Positions 896 through 17,672 of a stretch of 22,670 nucleotides of DNA are shown in pieces. Origin of the DNA: a virus. The notes below the pieces were generated by a model. The model saw only the letters and a program-made list of their open reading frames with translations, was not told the DNA's origin and searched no databases. The stretch spans positions 1-22,670 of IMG/VR virus record IMGVR_UViG_3300021379_001533, one strand, 5' to 3'. A program made the position numbers and the translations under genes. How positions within the stretch are numbered: the stretch's first letter is position 1; each line of letters opens with the position of its first letter.

Positions 896-1573
896 TTACC
901 GCAATCCAGAGGCAAAGATCTCAAACTTGTTGAGCCAGGTCTTCTGCCTCTCCTCACGGAGAACCTCATTCTTAGTTGCGGAAACCTTATTGATTTGTTG
1001 CTGGGCAAACTCAAGGTCAACAGCACGTAAAGCACCATTGTCCCAGATCCATTCCACACCCTCCATAATACCCTCAACGAAAGCATCGGGTGCCGAAGGA
1101 TCAGCAACTATGTCTGCGGCAGTCGCTAGAAAAAAGTCACTCTGGACTTCGTTAGCACCATCCTTACCTGGTTTGAGCGAACCCATTCCACGCGAGGATA
1201 CTCCTAATTTTGCACCTTCATTGATAAGATTTTTCACGATCTCTCCCATAGGAGTTCCCATGACTTTTGCCTTACCGATAAAATTATCACCATCCTGTTT
1301 TAGTTCAGTGATCATGTGCGAAACTCTATCAAGATTAACAGTCGGAGAATCAGGGTGACCCAACTCACCAAAAGCACGATTACTATCGATGTACTTTTCT
1401 GTGTATCTCTTGACTTCTTTAGATAATGTCTCAATGGGGTAAACTCTTCCATTGCGATTCTTGATATTGCCTTGGAGAAAAACACCTTCAATAAAATGCT
1501 TTTTGTCTCCTGCCTCATCAACCTTTGCCTCGCAAAGAACTAAGTCCTCATTGTATTCTTTTATTAGTTTCAT
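896..1573 (-). CDS. 21: gp21-like prohead core protease
   Basis: Serine protease of the T4 gp21 family (herpes-assemblin-like fold). It cleaves scaffold, capsid and internal proteins during head maturation, generally after Glu in a [L/I]-x-E context. The 225-aa protein shows the family hallmarks: GELGHP with candidate catalytic His73, and GVSSRGMGS with candidate nucleophile Ser126 or Ser127. The length is normal for the family (T4 gp21 is about 212 aa). The N-terminus contains KVDE followed by AG at residues 17-22, a possible self-cleavage site. The ATG at 1573 lies one base after the stop of the upstream basic protein, so the two are probably co-translated from the late promoter at 1973. 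Downstream is gp22. It is the likely processing enzyme for the leader-bearing proteins elsewhere in the window. Confidence 0.95.
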   Translation of the reverse strand: MKLIKEYNEDLVLCEAKVDEAGDKKHFIEGVFLQGNIKNRNGRVYPIETLSKEVKRYTEKYIDSNRAFGELGHPDSPTVNLDRVSHMITELKQDGDNFIGKAKVMGTPMGEIVKNLINEGAKLGVSSRGMGSLKPGKDGANEVQSDFFLATAADIVADPSAPDAFVEGIMEGVEWIWDNGALRAVDLEFAQQQINKVSATKNEVLREERQKTWLNKFEIFASGLR

Positions 1574-11063: not shown

Positions 11064-12068
11064 TCACTCATAGTAGGATGCGTCCATTGACCCATCATTT
11101 CTACCATACTTTTGTATGTCCATCTGAGTTCCGCCAAAGTTCATATTACCTTTGTCGTCAGATGTAGGACGTACTCCATAAAGGTATTCAATCGTATCAC
11201 AAGACTGATCTAAAGTCATTCCTGCGGCACGGTACAACTCCAGCATTCGATAGAGTTGCAGTTGGGTAATTTCGGGTTTCCCGTAGATTTCCATGCTGTC
11301 AGCAACATTGCCGTCCCACATACCTTCAGAAATCATTTTTTCTTTGATCCCAAATTTGTCGTCGATTTCCAAAAACCTCTCCTTAAGTTGGATACGTTGT
11401 TTGAACTGCTCGACGGAGAACTTAGGTCGTTGTAGTCGTTCTTCTCTACGACGGATTTGATCGTCAAGAGATTCGCTCTTTGGTTTTAAATCCACTTTTT
11501 CCTTTTTTCCTGTCATTTCAACCTTCTTACCTTTAGTTTTCTTTGTGACTCCTGGCGTCGGTGGTGAAGGTTTCTTTTGAACATCGACGGCACCAGTGCT
11601 CATGACGTTTTCGGGATCGGGTTCTTTTGGAGCAGGTTCACCTCCCTCAGCTCCTTTTGCAGGTGGAGCATCCTTCTCCTTCTCATCTTCTCCACCATCT
11701 TCCTTATCCTCTTCTCCATCCTTGGAGTCATCCTTTTCCTTTTTCTTACCTACAGGATCATCATCCTCATCTTCCTTGTCCTCATCATCTTCAGACTCTT
11801 CTTCTTTTTTGTCTTTGACGTCATCACCTGCTTTGGTATCAAATGGGTCAAACTTTTTGCCTTTTTTGGCATCCTTCATTCTTGCTTTGAGATCTTCCTG
11901 TTCTTTATCTTTAAAACCAGGATTCTCATCGTCGACTGTAGGATCGAGTTCTTTAATTTTCTTTGCTTTGGCTTCAGCAGTCTTCTTACGTTCAGCACGT
12001 AAACCTGCCTTATGCTCTGCATGCACCAGATCAATTATCTTGCTGGCGAGATTTACATACTTAGACAT
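11064..12068 (-). CDS. highly charged structural/core-like protein
   Basis: 334 aa in three parts: a basic, helical N-terminus (MSKYVNLASKIIDLVHAE then Lys/Ala-rich), an extremely acidic and lysine-rich low-complexity middle (about residues 80-160, with runs such as EEESEDDEDKEDEDDD), and a folded-looking C-terminus (about 200-334, with RRREERLQRPKFSVEQFKQR). I do not recognise it. LVHAE followed by H could be a gp21-type site but is weaker than the F-[IL]-x-E leaders. Charged composition like this is typical of prohead core proteins such as gp22. It has its own CTAAATA late box (12094-12087) and a good AAAGGAAC ribosome binding site. The fibre-like gene follows after 41 bases. Confidence 0.75.
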   Translation of the reverse strand: MSKYVNLASKIIDLVHAEHKAGLRAERKKTAEAKAKKIKELDPTVDDENPGFKDKEQEDLKARMKDAKKGKKFDPFDTKAGDDVKDKKEEESEDDEDKEDEDDDPVGKKKEKDDSKDGEEDKEDGGEDEKEKDAPPAKGAEGGEPAPKEPDPENVMSTGAVDVQKKPSPPTPGVTKKTKGKKVEMTGKKEKVDLKPKSESLDDQIRRREERLQRPKFSVEQFKQRIQLKERFLEIDDKFGIKEKMISEGMWDGNVADSMEIYGKPEITQLQLYRMLELYRAAGMTLDQSCDTIEYLYGVRPTSDDKGNMNFGGTQMDIQKYGRNDGSMDASYYE

Positions 12069-12085: not shown

Positions 12086-13432
12086 CTATTTAGGTTCGTT
12101 GCGTATGTCTGGATTCACAACGAATCCATTTTTCTGCATCCATCCTGTTCCCATAAGAACAGGGTAGTTCATATGACCACGATCTGCCAGGGAAAATCTG
12201 ACAGGGTATTCTTTCTTACGGAATGTCATTGGAATGGTGACCACGGGTCGCCTTTCCTTATCTGTACCAACTGCACCCTGAACAGTCTCAAACTCATCAA
12301 CAGGAAATGTTAATGTCTTCCCTGTATCTCCGACTTTGAAAATGGCACGATTATTCTTTGTTACCTTGAGTCCTCTGGCATCAAGTGTAGATGAGCCAGC
12401 ATTTCCTGTATCCATTTTTGCTAGCATCTCACCCCACTCAAACTTGACAGGTTCGATAACACCGATCTCAACTTTTTTCTTCGTCCAGTTTTTATCATCC
12501 TGGAAAAAGGTATGCATGTTTCTCACGACGTCTCTGCCATCGATGTCTTTTTTCTCGTTGATGGAATAGTATTTTCCAGAGACGCCAGGAGAACCATTTA
12601 CCTCGATGATAGTGTATCCAAAATCACCGACTCCAATATCAACTCCACAGAATCTCATGTTCATAGCATGTGCTGCTAGCTCAGCGATTCGTACCATCTC
12701 AGGTGTAGGTCGATAGGGTTCGTAGTTTGATCCGAGTTTTATATTGGTACGGAAGTCCTTGTCTGCCTTAAATCTTCTCATGGCAAAAATCGCCTCGCCT
12801 AATAAAACTCCGACTCGAATATCGTATTTGATAGGAAGGTATTGCTGAAGTAGGATTTCTTTGTTGTCAACGTCAAAGGCATCTACGACAGACTGTAGAG
12901 ATTCCATTGAGTCTATTTTCATGACACCCTTGCCCTGTGATCCTGTAACAGTTTTTAGGATCATTGGAAACTTGCCTCCGACAGTCTTCACTGCGTCCTC
13001 GAGTACGGCAGGATGAACTATGGATGTTATCGGAGTGACAAGTTTCGCATCAGTAAGAATGCGAGAAGTCGTGAGTTTGTTTCTCGCATTCTTCATTGTG
13101 CCGATCTCATTGAGCATAGACACACCGATCGTCTCAAGAGATTCTACGACACCTAACCTTGACTCATCTGTCAGAACAGAACCTAAAGGAATAGCAAAAG
13201 TCTCATTGACATTTATTTGAAGACTATCCATTTTACCATTGTAGTTGTTAATGGTAATCTTTCCAGACCTTACTTTTTTGGTATCAAGATAGCATTCATC
13301 TACGTAGACGATGTAGGTATTTTCCATATCTCCCCAAAACTCCTGGGGATTGCTATCCATTGGGTTTGAGATAGTCAATACAAGGAAGGTCGGTTTACTG
13401 ACCTCTTCAAACATTGTCTTAAAATGCTTCAC
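12086..13432 (-). CDS. RimK-like ATP-grasp ligase fused to RimB-like (zinc/aspartyl) protease domain, with capsid-targeting-like leader
   Basis: 448 aa. Residues ~85-310 are an ATP-grasp of the RimK kind (ATP-dependent carboxylate-amine ligation). They show Lys160 and the glycine loop in MILKTVTGSQGKGV, LLQQYLP at 194-200, the DIRV strand (Asp204), and the metal-binding IIEVNGSPG (Glu277, Asn279). Residues ~328-432 resemble the RimB / ATP-dependent zinc protease family: MDTGNAGSSTLDA (Asp341) corresponds to its DTGA motif, and DRGHMNYPVLMG to its RxxMxYPVLLG motif. In bacteria RimK and RimB modify and demodify protein C-termini such as that of S6; here they are one chain. The N-terminus MKHFKTMFEEV looks like a shortened capsid-targeting leader with a site after Glu10. 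It starts on an ATGA overlap with the nucleotidyltransferase. Substrate unknown. Confidence 0.88.
   Translation of the reverse strand: MKHFKTMFEEVSKPTFLVLTISNPMDSNPQEFWGDMENTYIVYVDECYLDTKKVRSGKITINNYNGKMDSLQINVNETFAIPLGSVLTDESRLGVVESLETIGVSMLNEIGTMKNARNKLTTSRILTDAKLVTPITSIVHPAVLEDAVKTVGGKFPMILKTVTGSQGKGVMKIDSMESLQSVVDAFDVDNKEILLQQYLPIKYDIRVGVLLGEAIFAMRRFKADKDFRTNIKLGSNYEPYRPTPEMVRIAELAAHAMNMRFCGVDIGVGDFGYTIIEVNGSPGVSGKYYSINEKKDIDGRDVVRNMHTFFQDDKNWTKKKVEIGVIEPVKFEWGEMLAKMDTGNAGSSTLDARGLKVTKNNRAIFKVGDTGKTLTFPVDEFETVQGAVGTDKERRPVVTIPMTFRKKEYPVRFSLADRGHMNYPVLMGTGWMQKNGFVVNPDIRNEPK
12087..12094 (-). promoter_or_regulatory. late promoter box before the charged 334-aa gene
   Basis: Minus-strand CCTAAATA is embedded in the last codons of the ATP-grasp gene (the TAG stop at 12088-12086 overlaps the box). 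The next ATG is at 12068, about 20 bases on, with AAAGGAAC between. Same box as at the other late junctions, here with CCT rather than CCCT. Confidence 0.6.
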
Positions 13433-14037
13433 TTTACTCCCATTCCTTTCCGTACTGCGATGAACATTTTCTTGACATCAGGTTCCTTGAGTTTTTCAGG
13501 TGACCCAAGCATAAAATGTGAATAATCATTATCCTTAGCAAATGCACGCATTTTACTAGCAGACATCCCTTCAGCACCATCTGCATCAGGATCTCTTTCG
13601 CCTGCTGAGATTACTTGTAGGTCGACTCCAATGTCTTTATCTTTATCAGCATGACCTGAATACTTTTTGAACATAGCAGTATATCCTGGGACTCTATCAG
13701 ATCCAGCAATAAACATTACCTTACCGTAACCTTCTGCTTTTAATCTGTAGACGATGGAAAAAGGGTTATCCGATTTGTTTTTACTATATACCATCAAATT
13801 TTTACCAAATGCTTTTTGGCAAATCTTGAATTTGGTATCGTAATCTAATGGATCTTTTTTCTTATCCTGAGTTTTAGAGACGAATACCATTGGCTTGCCT
13901 CCCTGTTGCTGGGCAACCCTCGATACGGTCTGGACAAGTTTCTGATGACCGATCGTAGGAGGATTCATTCTTCCGAATGTAACGACGGCAACCTTTTCGT
14001 TTTTCGCCTCGCGAATGAACTGCGTATAAGTTTTCAT
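13429..14037 (-). CDS. HxGH-type nucleotidyltransferase with T4 internal-protein-like capsid-targeting leader
   Basis: 202 aa. After a 10-residue leader the protein is a cytidylyl/adenylyl-transferase fold of the NMNAT/NadR-like kind. It has GRMNPPTIGH at 22-31 (the T-I-G-H form of the nucleotide-binding HxGH motif), FIAGSDR at 109-115, and SASKMRAFA at 159-167 in place of ISSTxIR, which binds the triphosphate. The substrate cannot be told from sequence; nicotinamide mononucleotide is one candidate. The N-terminus MKTYTQFIRE followed by A differs at only three of eleven positions from the T4 internal protein III leader as I remember it (MKTYQEFIAE followed by A), so gp21 cleavage after Glu10 is likely. 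The start is the ATG at 14037, just after the upstream stop. The frame is open further upstream but only as a shadow of the preceding gene. Confidence 0.9.
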   Translation of the reverse strand: MKTYTQFIREAKNEKVAVVTFGRMNPPTIGHQKLVQTVSRVAQQQGGKPMVFVSKTQDKKKDPLDYDTKFKICQKAFGKNLMVYSKNKSDNPFSIVYRLKAEGYGKVMFIAGSDRVPGYTAMFKKYSGHADKDKDIGVDLQVISAGERDPDADGAEGMSASKMRAFAKDNDYSHFMLGSPEKLKEPDVKKMFIAVRKGMGVK

Positions 14038-14038
14038 T

Positions 14039-14959
14039 TTACTTTTTCTTAGGACGGACTGTAGTAACTGATCCCTTGCCAGGAACTCCACCTTTACCAC
14101 CCCAACCCTCTTGCTTCTCTTTGACCTTCTCCTCCCAGTACTCTTTGGTAGACTGAGACCGAGTATCAGTAGCAAGTTTGACTGCCTCTTCCCAAGACAA
14201 CTCTTCCTTTTTGGTGATCTTGTGAGCAGTGTCTTTGTCCATGGTGACCTTGTGAGTCTTGTCGCCAATTTTTACTTCTTTTTTACCTGCCTTTGCGGCA
14301 TGAGCAATCTTGGCCATGAAGTCTTCGTCTTGAACTTTCTTCTTTTCCTGAAGATTCTCGACTTGTTTGAGATCAATATTCATATCGTCCTTTAATCTTT
14401 TGCGTTTGAGTTCCGGTGCTGGAACGTCGAAGTTATCTTTTACGATGTTGTAATCAAACATCTTACCTTTATACTTACCTGACTGGGGAACACCTGAAAT
14501 GGTATTGCCCTGAGGTTTTTCAAACTTAAAAACTACTTTATCATCCTCTTTGGCACCATTCTGTCCTATGGCTGGCCACCAGTCATATTTCATCTGACCT
14601 TTGAGAATAAATCCTACGGTGGTCTTGTCAATATAACCACTCATTGCTAGATTTGAGGGCATCGTCCTCTCATCAATAATCTCTTCTGATTCTACTGGAG
14701 ATTTCGTTTCTTTTTTCTTGACAGGATTCTCATGACCCTCAGTATCTTCTACGTTGTCCTTGTGCTCAGGTTTCTTACCTGTAATAAATTTTTCGCGATC
14801 GTCCTTCTCCGAGGCATGCTGGAAAAACTTTTCCTCGTAGTCAGATGTCTTTTTGGAAATAGGGTGCTCTTGAACACCATCTTTCTGACCAGGCGTATGG
14901 CTAGACTTTGCCTCATCTACTTTATTGACTACATTTTTGATTTGGTGTTCAAGTCTCAT
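14039..14959 (-). CDS. charged hypothetical protein of the packaged-enzyme operon
   Basis: 306 aa, unrecognised. The N-terminal ~100 residues are polar and low-complexity with HTPGQKDG and many Lys, Glu and Asp. A more ordered segment follows (about 105-190, with MSGYIDKTTVGFILKGQMKY), then Lys/Glu-rich helices, and a Gly-rich basic tail (GWGGKGGVPGKGSV). VNKVDE followed by AK at residues 12-19 is a possible gp21 site, similar to KVDE-A in gp21 itself. It begins on an ATGA overlap with the 275-aa gene and ends one base before the nucleotidyltransferase start, so it is part of the same translation chain. Its composition suits a protein resident in the head interior. Confidence 0.75.
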   Translation of the reverse strand: MRLEHQIKNVVNKVDEAKSSHTPGQKDGVQEHPISKKTSDYEEKFFQHASEKDDREKFITGKKPEHKDNVEDTEGHENPVKKKETKSPVESEEIIDERTMPSNLAMSGYIDKTTVGFILKGQMKYDWWPAIGQNGAKEDDKVVFKFEKPQGNTISGVPQSGKYKGKMFDYNIVKDNFDVPAPELKRKRLKDDMNIDLKQVENLQEKKKVQDEDFMAKIAHAAKAGKKEVKIGDKTHKVTMDKDTAHKITKKEELSWEEAVKLATDTRSQSTKEYWEEKVKEKQEGWGGKGGVPGKGSVTTVRPKKK

Positions 14960-15783
14960 AAGAACCTTTTGTATTCTTTCTTAAAGTTTTTAGCCCACTC
15001 AATATCATACTTTTCTAATCCTTTAGTATTTAAAATATTGAGTTCTTTTTTATCCATAGCAACACCAAATTTAGCATCGGTCAAAAGTTTACCTAATCCT
15101 GCCGATGGAGTTAATGGTTCTTGCTTTAACCAAAGTGTTTCAATGCCTTCTACCAGTGCTTTAAGTGGAAGCATTTTCCATGCTTTGTCTTTTTCTACTT
15201 TTAATAATGCTTCTTTGACTGCAGATTTCATTTGCCCTGGTCCATTTTTATAAGCACTGAAGCAAATTTTGAATCCATCATCATTTACATAATCTCCAGT
15301 ATCAACTCTGCCTTCCCCAAGTTCATGTTCTATCTGATCCTCAGGAGAAAAGTGTCGTGGTTCCATAGGTTGTACTTGACCACCAAATCTATCTGCAAGA
15401 TAGCACTGAACCAAAGGGTGATAAGAATCATCTACTGACATAAGATCCCCTATCGGAGTCTCATAAGGATTCCAACCATCTTCCATGTCATTCATATCAG
15501 CAAATACTTCTTCCCAATCTTTATCGGGATCTTTTCCTTCGTCTTCTAGATATTCCTCCATGCCCTCTTTGTCTTCAAAATTCTCATACCACTCATCATA
15601 AAAGAGGTCCTTGAAGTTTTTCGCATATTCATCTTCTATCCCACGATTTTCTAAATCTTCTTTAATTTTCTTAGGAGAATAAACATGAACATAATAGTCT
15701 ATCAACAAACGAATGGCAGATAAAGGTTCTATCTTAAGAGTTTTATCAGGTGCCTCTGCTAAAAATGTTTTTAATGTTTTCAT
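14956..15783 (-). CDS. acidic hypothetical protein with capsid-targeting-like leader
   Basis: 275 aa, unrecognised. The leader MKTLKTFLAE followed by A is a strong match to the T4 internal-protein capsid-targeting pattern with cleavage after Glu10. The processed protein is very acidic between about residues 38 and 115 (YDEWYENFEDKEGMEEYLED and similar), with many aromatic residues. The C-terminal part is less charged and more ordered (from about 165, FKICFSAYKNGPGQMKSAV). No catalytic motif was found. The ATG at 15783 lies one base after the stop of the KWDG gene, and the 3' end overlaps the next ATG by four bases. Confidence 0.8.
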   Translation of the reverse strand: MKTLKTFLAEAPDKTLKIEPLSAIRLLIDYYVHVYSPKKIKEDLENRGIEDEYAKNFKDLFYDEWYENFEDKEGMEEYLEDEGKDPDKDWEEVFADMNDMEDGWNPYETPIGDLMSVDDSYHPLVQCYLADRFGGQVQPMEPRHFSPEDQIEHELGEGRVDTGDYVNDDGFKICFSAYKNGPGQMKSAVKEALLKVEKDKAWKMLPLKALVEGIETLWLKQEPLTPSAGLGKLLTDAKFGVAMDKKELNILNTKGLEKYDIEWAKNFKKEYKRFL

Positions 15784-15784
15784 T

Positions 15785-17041
15785 TTACCAACTCTTTATT
15801 GCGTTAAAGTTCGCCATAGAGAACTCTAAACGATCTACGATTTTGACAGCATTGCCTTTCATCTTATCTACTGCGACAAAACCTTCGGGACCCGTAACTT
15901 TGAATCCCTTCTCGGTTTTGACGAAAGTATCTGTCATTTGTTTTACTTTTTCGAGTTTCTTGACAACGAAGTCTTTGGCAATCTGTATAGCATTCATCAA
16001 ATCAAACACTACTTTAACCTTTCCTTTCTGTTTTGTCAAGTCGGAAATAAACTTTTTGAGATCAGCAGTTTTGGCGTCGATGGTTTTTTGAGTTTTAAGT
16101 TTTGCAATCTTTTTCATCTGCTTCTCTTCGAGGTATGCTAGCAGTTCAATAGCCATCTTTGCTGTATTACCGATCCTCTGACCCTGGCGAATCTTAGAGT
16201 TCATAAATGCTTTTATGTCTACTCTCAGTTTTTCGTCAGATGCAAATCTCTCGATTAGAGACTTGTCAACCTTTGTTGCGATTTTCCTAGCATCCTTTAT
16301 CTGGCTAGAAAAATCCTTACTTTCTTTCGCAGTAAAAACTGCTGACCCTGATGCGTCAGAGTACTCAGCATCTTGAATCCATACATCTTTCGGTGCCCGT
16401 AGTTTATTTACGGCAGGATTAAATGATGCTCGGTACTCTGATAAGTCTCCCTTTCCTGAATAGTCAGTATGGAAAACTACACCGAGTTTGCAACCTTTGA
16501 TTTGTTTTGCGAGGGGAGTAGATTTAGGAATGGCGTAGACGATAGTATTTGGCTGGAACGTAACGTAGTCTGTTCCGTCGATCGTTTTGTCTACCAGATC
16601 TTCTGCCGTAAACATCATGTCTCCTTGGAAGACATGGCCATCTGGGATTCCTACATCAGCGAGTTTTGCTAACGCAGTTTTCAGTTTAGGATTGAGACCA
16701 GACTCTGGATAGAGATCGTCTACATCTTTTGCTGTCTTACAGAGTTTTGGATTCTGATTAAAGACAGATTTGGTCCCAACGAAAAACTGACCATCAGAAG
16801 GATCCTTGCCACAGAAAATAGCAGGTGCTCCATCCCATTTGGTTGTTATTTTTACGGATGATTTCGAACTGCCATTCATCATCTCTTCTAGTGCATCCAA
16901 AAATTTGAATGCTAATTGGACTCCCTCAACACCTCCGTTGAGGACCTCGTCTTCTAGATGTTCGAGATGCAGGTTTTTGCCTTCTTTACCCTCGACAATA
17001 AACCCTGATTCGGGAGCACGAAATGACGAAAATGCTAGCAC
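15785..17041 (-). CDS. KWDG nucleotidyltransferase/ligase-like protein (DUF6267-like) with capsid-targeting-like leader
   Basis: 418 aa. I recall relatives annotated as a phage family of unknown function (DUF6267). The sequence reads like a covalent nucleotidyltransferase (polynucleotide ligase/capping fold). VKITTKWDGAPAIF holds a KxDG motif I with candidate nucleotide-accepting Lys68; HVFQGDMMF (136-144) fits motif III; GPEGFVAVD (384-392) fits motif IV (EGxV); and AVKIVDR (398-404) fits motif V. The long helical insertion (about 245-380) between motifs III and IV is unusual and weakens the case. The first 17 residues end SGFIVE followed by G, a capsid-targeting-like site. The start is a GTG at 17041 with AGGGG five bases upstream; an out-of-frame ATG just before it terminates at once. 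It heads the operon behind the late box at 17075. Confidence 0.78.
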   Translation of the reverse strand: MLAFSSFRAPESGFIVEGKEGKNLHLEHLEDEVLNGGVEGVQLAFKFLDALEEMMNGSSKSSVKITTKWDGAPAIFCGKDPSDGQFFVGTKSVFNQNPKLCKTAKDVDDLYPESGLNPKLKTALAKLADVGIPDGHVFQGDMMFTAEDLVDKTIDGTDYVTFQPNTIVYAIPKSTPLAKQIKGCKLGVVFHTDYSGKGDLSEYRASFNPAVNKLRAPKDVWIQDAEYSDASGSAVFTAKESKDFSSQIKDARKIATKVDKSLIERFASDEKLRVDIKAFMNSKIRQGQRIGNTAKMAIELLAYLEEKQMKKIAKLKTQKTIDAKTADLKKFISDLTKQKGKVKVVFDLMNAIQIAKDFVVKKLEKVKQMTDTFVKTEKGFKVTGPEGFVAVDKMKGNAVKIVDRLEFSMANFNAIKSW

Positions 17042-17066: not shown

Positions 17067-17075
17067 TATTTAGGG
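17067..17075 (-). promoter_or_regulatory. late promoter box of the packaged-enzyme operon
   Basis: Minus-strand CCCTAAATA overlaps the TAA stop (17072-17070) of the metalloprotease-like gene. It is identical to the boxes before gp22 and before the gp21 unit. The transcript would start near 17060, with AGGGG and the GTG at 17041 following. The five genes down to 12086 have gaps of at most one base, and no other box lies between them. Confidence 0.65.
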
Positions 17076-17672
17076 TTTTACCATTTTTTGTAATACTTCT
17101 GCTTTGAGTGCGGTAAGATGGTAGAGTTCAGATTTGACCTCTACTGATTTGACCTTTTGAAACCTTTCGAATACGTCTGACTCATGCAGTGTACCCTTTC
17201 GTACGTAGTCATATGCAAGTTCAGTAGAGTAGGCATCGACCTCAAGAGGGTCTACAAAATCATACAGAGGATCATTTGAAGGTTGTATGTCCTTCTGATC
17301 TGCATGGGTGTATTCATGCAGGACGCATTTCGTAAACTCATGCGACAGTTCAGTAAGTATCGGGAGAGTGATAGGGACCTCTCTCCTGTAGACAGGTTTG
17401 GAGCAAAAGAAACTAATATCTATCCTCGGACTTTTCCTATGCTCATCAGGAACATAAGTCGATCCATCGAGGTAGCATTCATTTGATTGCAGTCTCGTTG
17501 CGATTTTGACTTTGAATGAAGTAGGAACTGAGAGAACTGTTGTCAGGTCTCGAGTCAGATTACCTTCTACTTCATCCCATGAGGTTGCGTGGTGATTGAC
17601 AAAATGATCCCAGCATTGATGTGCCGCATCTATCGTACCAAAGATACGATGCATTCGTTTTTCTTCGAACAT
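17070..17672 (-). CDS. HEXXH zinc metalloprotease-like protein
   Basis: 200 aa. The helix CVLHEYTHADQ carries HEXXH (His119, Glu120, His123), the zinc site of metalloproteases. The downstream PLEVDAYSTELAYDY (Glu144) provides a plausible third ligand on a second helix, as in gluzincins. No signal peptide or membrane segment, so it is likely cytoplasmic or packaged. I do not recognise a specific family; possible roles are a host-protein protease or a virion maturation factor. It follows gp41 after only six bases, and its stop codon overlaps the late box of the next operon, so it is probably expressed with the replication genes. The ATG at 17672 was chosen; a second at 17654 with GAAGAA upstream is possible and removes six residues. 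Confidence 0.75.
   Translation of the reverse strand: MFEEKRMHRIFGTIDAAHQCWDHFVNHHATSWDEVEGNLTRDLTTVLSVPTSFKVKIATRLQSNECYLDGSTYVPDEHRKSPRIDISFFCSKPVYRREVPITLPILTELSHEFTKCVLHEYTHADQKDIQPSNDPLYDFVDPLEVDAYSTELAYDYVRKGTLHESDVFERFQKVKSVEVKSELYHLTALKAEVLQKMVKP

Follow-up and report, generated by a model that had tools for sequence, protein, structure and literature searches.

DUF6267, a protein family of unknown function in marine T4-like phages, as a predicted ligase-fold covalent nucleotidyltransferase

Introduction

Can a ligase be hidden in a phage protein family to which no function has been assigned? This question is raised by one gene in the window analysed here, which is the whole stretch of 22,670 nucleotides at positions 1 to 22,670 of IMG/VR virus record IMGVR_UViG_3300021379_001533. 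This 22.7-kb virus record carries T4-like genes, including those for a gp21-type prohead protease, a class II ribonucleotide reductase, ThyX, a DnaB-type helicase, a RecA/UvsX-type protein and a DNA polymerase. The gene in question is an open reading frame (ORF) with a GTG start:

15785-17041, minus strand: DUF6267 protein, 418 amino acids (AA), predicted ligase-fold covalent nucleotidyltransferase (PF19782, phrog_455, structural model, ligase matches)

An earlier sequence-only reading of this locus, which gave no strand, had proposed that the protein may be a ligase-like covalent nucleotidyltransferase which, packaged in the phage head, could repair nicks or tRNA breaks at injection. The enzyme class is supported at the level of fold and motifs by two predicted structures and by invariant motif residues. 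DUF6267 is therefore very probably a divergent branch within the covalent nucleotidyltransferases, the superfamily that includes RNA and DNA ligases and capping enzymes.

The DUF6267 family

Close relatives have an ATG where the window copy has its GTG, which makes this start probably correct and lets the numbering of Lys68 stand. The protein matches the Pfam family DUF6267 (PF19782) with an E-value of 9e-101 and the PHROGs family phrog_455 with an E-value of 1e-90. Both are annotated as being of unknown function, and a literature search found no open-access paper naming DUF6267 or PF19782. By tblastn, DUF6267 was found in 467 phage records. Nearly all of them are cyanophages, and the remainder are some phages of Pelagibacter, Methylophilales, Stenotrophomonas, Vibrio and Pseudoalteromonas. 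Another 40 matches came from bacterial genomes, nearly all of them metagenome bins. Since these resemble phage contigs, no cellular origin of DUF6267 was found among them.

The family occurs in three forms, namely a long form of about 400-420 AA that includes the window protein and two compact forms, the S-RIM2 type (about 300 AA) and the P-SSM2 type (about 297 AA), in which the helical region is much shorter. The alignments of long and compact forms match each other in hhalign with an E-value of 1e-90, a value that is helped by three long rows in the compact alignment (A4).

Motif residues and conservation

The four strings on which the sequence-only reading was based are present in the stated order: KWDGAPAIF (with K68), FQGDMMF (D141), GPEGFVAVD (E386) and AVKIVDR (K400). 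The claimed helical insertion of about 130 residues is likewise recovered, as the helices of the model span about 127 residues ahead of motifs IV and V. The predicted motifs lie as follows, with counts referring to a conservation set of 154 DUF6267 sequences that is non-redundant at 85%:

16949-16969, minus strand: HxxHxED, residues 25-31 (HLEHLED), N-terminal of motif I; H25, H28, E30 and D31 kept in 97-98%
16832-16840, minus strand: motif I, K68-W-D70 (KWDG), with the predicted nucleotide-accepting Lys; 153 of 154; loop after strand 63-67
16769-16771, minus strand: motif Ia, K91; 154 of 154
16619-16630, minus strand: motif III, F138-Q-G-D141, Asp for the usual Glu; Q139 and D141 in 154 of 154; in strand 136-145
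16469-16471, minus strand: motif IIIa, H191; 154 of 154; in strand 186-195; His also in RLIG1
15950-16330, minus strand: helical insertion, residues 238-364 (DSSP of the model), between motifs IIIa and IV; shorter in compact forms
15875-15886, minus strand: motif IV, E386-G-F-V389; E386, G387 and V389 in 153 of 154, with one gap; just before strand 388-392
15830-15844, minus strand: motif V, K400-I-V-D-R404; K400 in 153 and R404 in 152 of 154; strand 398-401

A relaxed version of this motif order occurs in 335 of 20000 shuffles of the protein (1.7%), and the order in a single sequence therefore counts for little. The motif residues had been picked from a single sequence without an alignment, and their conservation is therefore an independent test. 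Across 87 relatives, K68, D70, G71, D141, E386, G387 and K400 are invariant. In the larger set, K91, Q139, D141, P164, H191, Y194 and N281 are kept in every sequence, K68, D70, G71, E386, G387 and K400 in all except one, and R404 in all except two. Conservation across these alignments turns the weak motif order into strong evidence. DUF6267 also carries the marks of the superfamily, with a KxDG motif I, a basic residue at Ia, a IIIa His in a strand, and EGxV together with the motif V Lys. The spacing of motifs IV and V is 14 in the window protein and 12 in compact forms, where about 12-25 is expected.

Predicted structure

An AlphaFold model of the window protein, based on 87 relatives, reached a pLDDT of 89.3 and a pTM of 0.86, with residues 1-21 as the sole segment below a pLDDT of 50. 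A second model was obtained from a different alignment for the compact P-SSM2-type relative L221 (296 AA, without the full helical insert; pLDDT 88). The two-sheet nucleotidyltransferase (NTase) fold is seen in both predictions. In the window model, the motif residues are placed as in ligases, with K68 in a loop between strands, D141 and H191 in strands, E386-G387 in a turn and K400 in a strand.

Comparison of predicted structures with ligases, which the sequence-only reading had suggested as a check, gave RNA and DNA ligases as the best matches of both models. In VIA-align, ranks 1-44 for the window model are all RNA or DNA ligases, led by the Naegleria gruberi RNA ligase (Z 9.3, 187 residues, 3.7 A), while T4 Rnl2 and T4 Rnl1 reach Z 8.1 and Z 7.8. 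For the L221 model, 50 of 50 rows among the matches listed are polynucleotide ligases (top Z 9.0, 172 residues, 3.6 A), and Foldseek places DNA ligases at ranks 1-5, with weak E-values. In a viral structure library, an RNA ligase follows at rank 15, straight after the family's own members. Residues 19 to 413 of the window model align on residues 140 to 338 of the N. gruberi ligase, so that this predicted match spans motifs I-V at once, which is not expected if the motif segments pointed to different places. This span supports, though only indirectly, a convergence of the motif residues on one pocket, the point on which the sequence-only reading had made its proposal depend. The weight of the fold evidence lies in the purity of the match lists, the agreement of two separate models and the matches on both sides of the insertion.

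Capsid targeting

In T4, the first ten residues of an internal protein direct it to the head, with positions 4 and 7 serving targeting and positions 8 and 10 permitting cleavage (PMC9026906). T4 IPII and IPIII start with MKTYQEFIAE, which resembles the MKxFxxFLxE-type N-terminus of part of the long-form DUF6267 relatives. The strict pattern of this capsid-targeting sequence (CTS) occurs in 55 of 123 long-form genes, where 0.42 would be expected from shuffles, and in 0 of 158 compact genes. The relative from Methylophilales phage Melnitz is one example of the CTS type. DUF6267 differs from T4 internal head proteins in its enzyme-like fold, in the displaced cleavage site of the window protein and in the untagged compact forms. 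The following features of the window are relevant here:

16976-17041, minus strand: N-terminal tail of DUF6267, residues 1-22, of low confidence in the model; the CTS targeting positions are occupied by F4 and F7, and FIVE18/G is a possible cleavage site of the gp21 type
896-1573, minus strand: T4 gp21-like prohead protease, which would cut CTS propeptides (Peptidase_S77, E 1.5e-34; phrog_207, head maturation protease)

The N-terminus of the window protein is thus a CTS variant, with both phenylalanines in place and the cleavage-type site displaced. Head packaging as proposed by the sequence-only reading is supported for many relatives and for the NMNAT-like neighbour described below, whereas the window protein itself has only this variant signal. 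Its packaging into the head is likely.

DUF6267 is absent from the virion tables of S-SZBM1 and S-CREM2 and is not labelled as a virion protein in the S-SCSM1 record. The copies in these three phages lack a CTS, so their non-listing is what the CTS rule predicts. No virion proteome of a CTS-bearing form was found in the literature. S-SCSM1_90, a virion protein encoded beside the NMNAT-like gene, was considered as DUF6267 and rejected, because its translation belongs to another family. That uncharacterised family, with a KWSPADIY motif, was found in 54 phage records, and its gene is often the one immediately upstream of DUF6267. S-SCSM1_90 itself (locus L332, 3459-4793) is labelled as a virion protein in the S-SCSM1 record, yet has no CTS. 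A protein kinase has been reported in S-CRM01 virions and is taken to be g130, whose gene (locus L330, 7676-10141) lies two genes after DUF6267 and whose product starts with MISFDQFLSE.

Gene neighbourhood

DUF6267 has a conserved neighbour, which is also present in the window:

13429-14037, minus strand: NMNAT-like cytidylyltransferase with the CTS MKTYTQFIREA (PF01467 just under the cut-off; phrog_3041, E 7e-54)

The longest possible start of this ORF, at 14268, is too far upstream, and the real start is likely MKTYTQ at 14037, which gives a capsid-targeting N-terminus of the T4 IPIII type. The NMNAT-like enzyme was found in 522 phage records, and its gene is near DUF6267 in 76 of 94 long-form loci and in all 73 S-RIM2-type loci. 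Besides the window copy, its CTS is present in 73 of 73 S-RIM2-type loci, in 6 of the 6 P-SSM2-type loci where the enzyme was found, and in only 8 of the 76 long-form loci. Orthologues were detected by mass spectrometry in virions of S-SZBM1, S-SCSM1 and S-CREM2, with the authors' caution that contamination of the CsCl preparation might account for such virion-listed proteins (PMC9146016, PMC9602691, PMC10665884). All three have CTS-type N-termini.

In S-PM2 (locus L388, 1992-3767), DUF6267 and NMNAT form a single ORF of 1776 nt. This fusion and the adjacency in most loci suggest a shared pathway of the two proteins, hypothetically one with NAD+ as the donor and recycling of nicotinamide mononucleotide (NMN). 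An older S-PM2 record (locus L029, 3992-5771) shows two annotated genes, with a break inside DUF6267. Because the phrog_455 profile covers both DUF6267 and the cytidylyltransferase, labels assigned automatically to either protein can mislead.

The other genes around DUF6267 in the window are:

14956-15783, minus strand: next gene in the run, 275 AA, CTS-like N-terminus MKTLKTFLAEA; no Pfam or PHROG match
12086-13432, minus strand: RimK-like ATP-grasp and retropepsin-like domain, CTS-like N-terminus MKHFKTMFEEV, same gene run (PF08443, PF05618 / RloA3); perhaps an injected glutamate ligase that carries its own protease
14039-14959 and 11064-12068, minus strand: same gene run; no Pfam or PHROG match
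17070-17672, minus strand: directly upstream of DUF6267, 200 AA, HEYTH zinc-peptidase-like motif; no family match

Ligase complement

Thirteen DUF6267 phages, with T4 as a control, were searched for four canonical ligase families. None of the four was found in 10 of the 13 phages, while in T4 gp30, Rnl2 and Rnl1 were found and DUF6267 was not. A review counts gp30 among the replication genes, a set in which many quasicore members are missing from at least one marine cyanophage (PMC2993671). Both the window and several phages have genes for DNA polymerase, UvsX, gp41 helicase and primase near DUF6267. It is plausible that DUF6267 replaces the T4 ligases; the host ligase may also serve.

Proposed activity and alternative explanations

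If the assignment is correct, a lysyl-N-linked nucleoside monophosphate (NMP) would form when Lys68 attacks the donor nucleotide, most likely ATP, at its alpha-phosphate. K91, H191 and D141 would hold the nucleotide, and D70, D141, E386 and K400 would handle metal and phosphate. The 5'-phosphate at a nick in a polynucleotide would then most likely receive the NMP, and the nick would be sealed, with the inserted helical domain standing in for the usual C-terminal nucleic-acid-binding domain. In the lineage of the window, the newly made protein would bear a capsid-targeting propeptide that directs it into the prohead, gp21 would trim it, and it would enter the host together with the DNA at injection. 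We infer catalysis, donor and acceptor and, at one further remove, packing, trimming and injection. The full statement, a ligase-fold enzyme with catalysis that most likely joins nucleic acid, is probable. Ligation at injection is less likely than that, and the repair of nicks or tRNA at that stage, as the sequence-only reading had it, is a guess.

Several results weigh against this assignment. When solved structures were searched, neither the single protein nor two family profiles retrieved a ligase, and the only matches were coiled-coil noise and chance ones such as enolase. Scans of Pfam, NCBIfam and PHROGs gave only DUF6267 / phrog_455 and otherwise chance matches. Pfam does not place DUF6267 in RNA_ligase or RNA_lig_T4_1, and there was one stray RNA_lig_T4_1 match in the Pfam searches (E 0.039). 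The profile comparison with T4 Rnl2 advised in the sequence-only reading failed to show a link, as hhalign against a 13-member Rnl2 alignment gave a probability of 0.1%. The NAD+-ligase adenylation profile PF01653 was found in 0 of the 13 DUF6267 phages, and DUF6267 is hence unmatched. That the link is invisible to sequence methods explains why the family remained a DUF. The structural scores are also modest: Foldseek ranks a ligase first for both models, but its best E-values are 0.18 for the window model and 0.058 for L221, and Z values of 8-9 are barely above the usual best of models without any match. The motif III position is acidic and invariant but is Asp in every member. The second Lys of motif V (KxK) is absent, with V402 (88% conserved) in its place and the basic R404 two residues further on; this Lys was treated as common and not as decisive. 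The chain ends 18 residues past K400, which leaves no room for an OB domain, and no other known C-terminal domain is present. A DNA ligase with an OB domain and a capping enzyme were both set aside, as no domain follows motif V. Finally, DUF6267 occurs together with a DNA-ligase match in S-CRM01 and DLP6 and with an RNA ligase in S-CREM1. A gp30-type ligase is mostly missing where DUF6267 occurs, but a simple replacement of gp30 was set aside because these three phages have both, and the relationship is not simply an exchange.

The missing sequence-level link and the weak Foldseek values would be expected if the motif likeness were a coincidence and the structural match a general beta-sandwich resemblance. 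This is very improbable, since two separate models give match lists made up almost wholly of ligases and covering both halves around the insertion, and since the ligase motif residues are among the invariant columns. That same invariance bears on the idea that the ligase fold is not catalytic here and that the protein is retained for binding nucleic acid or as an internal head protein. Although the Asp in motif III and the missing motif V Lys are unlike known active enzymes, each of K68, D70, K91, D141, H191, E386 and K400 is missing from at most one of the 154 sequences, and an inactive enzyme should have lost some of these residues. Loss of catalysis is thus improbable, even though internal head proteins that are not ligases have a precedent in the small, basic IPI-III of T4 (PMC9026906).

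The remaining alternatives accept the fold and the lysyl-NMP chemistry. NAD+ may be the donor, such that DUF6267 takes AMP and releases NMN, and the NMNAT-like enzyme next to it or fused with it regenerates NAD+ out of NMN and ATP, with both acting as one unit. The neighbourhood counts, the S-PM2 fusion and the joint phrog_455 profile point in this direction, as does the invariant His/Glu/Asp motif N-terminal to the ligase core, given that NAD+-dependent ligases recognise NMN via an N-terminal element. Nevertheless, we consider this donor unlikely, because the NAD+-ligase adenylation family is unmatched, HxxHxED is closer in position to the N-terminus of T4 Rnl2 than to the Ia domain of LigA, and the nearest folds are ATP-dependent RNA ligases. 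A transfer of the NMP to a protein or small molecule would make DUF6267 an injected host-takeover enzyme with a role like that of T4 Alt, a modifier among the head-packaged T4 enzymes (PMC9026906). Protein-modifying enzymes in the gene run, namely the RimK-like ATP-grasp and retropepsin protein in the window and the nearby kinase gene in S-CRM01, agree with such a role, and no known nucleic-acid clamp domain is present in DUF6267. However, the close structural neighbours of both models are all polynucleotide ligases, the compact forms have no CTS and are not listed in virions, and DUF6267 of at least the S-RIM2 and S-SM1 types lies near replication genes, which fits DNA or RNA metabolism better than the modification of a host target. 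This makes such a target a minority possibility.

Significance

DUF6267 has no assigned function, although it is found widely across one of the commonest ocean virus groups. A ligase-fold assignment could explain how marine T4-like phages manage without the T4 ligases and, if true, would add a very divergent new branch to the ligase superfamily. A more far-reaching and rather doubtful idea is that DUF6267 is the missing polynucleotide ligase of these phages, in place of T4 gp30 and the RNA ligases. Some members of the group would then have acquired a capsid-targeting propeptide, and their virions would contain a finished ligase and the NMNAT-like enzyme, injected as a repair kit that works ahead of all phage gene expression. 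A head-packaged DUF6267, if true, would be to our knowledge the first ligase pre-loaded in a T4-like capsid. Scanning for CTS could predict head-packaged enzymes across marine T4-like phages.

Comparison with known ligases

DUF6267 departs from known ligases in the Asp of motif III, in V402 and R404, in the insert at residues 238-364, in HxxHxED and in having nothing after motif V. The N. gruberi RNA ligase (PDB 6vt9, 5cot) is the best structural match of both models, and its motif IV-V spacing of 14 is identical to that of the window protein. In contrast, identity is only about 8-13%, and the N. gruberi ligase has Glu in motif III. Only its residues from about 140 to 339 align, its N-terminal part being without a counterpart in DUF6267. 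Its spacing between motifs III and IV is 85 compared to 245, as its core has no such helical insert.

For the RNA ligase family RLIG1 (C12orf29), the N. gruberi ligase is the best structural match as well, and the T4 Rnl1 RNA-binding domain is absent (PMC11494293). Like DUF6267, it consists of an NTase domain without this RNA-binding domain, and its recognition is only recent. Its motif residues K73/D75, R89, E174, H195, E240 and K253 (PMC11494293) correspond to K68/D70, K91, D141, H191, E386 and K400, as matched by the published description, and its motif IV-V spacing is 13 compared to 14 in the window protein. Unlike DUF6267, RLIG1 has Glu in motif III, comprises cellular and giant-virus proteins and has no capsid tag.

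The T4 gp30 DNA ligase shares the fold of the NTase core without a sequence match, and has an OB domain after motif V where DUF6267 has none. T4 Rnl2 and Rnl1 have a C-terminal domain that DUF6267 lacks, and Rnl2 has KIHG in motif I and KCK in motif V, where DUF6267 has KWDG and KIV. Like DUF6267, they are phage proteins, with Z values of about 8 for the fold and an EGYV-type motif IV, and the alignment with Rnl2 starts at the Rnl2 N-terminus, which corresponds to the HxxHxED region of DUF6267.
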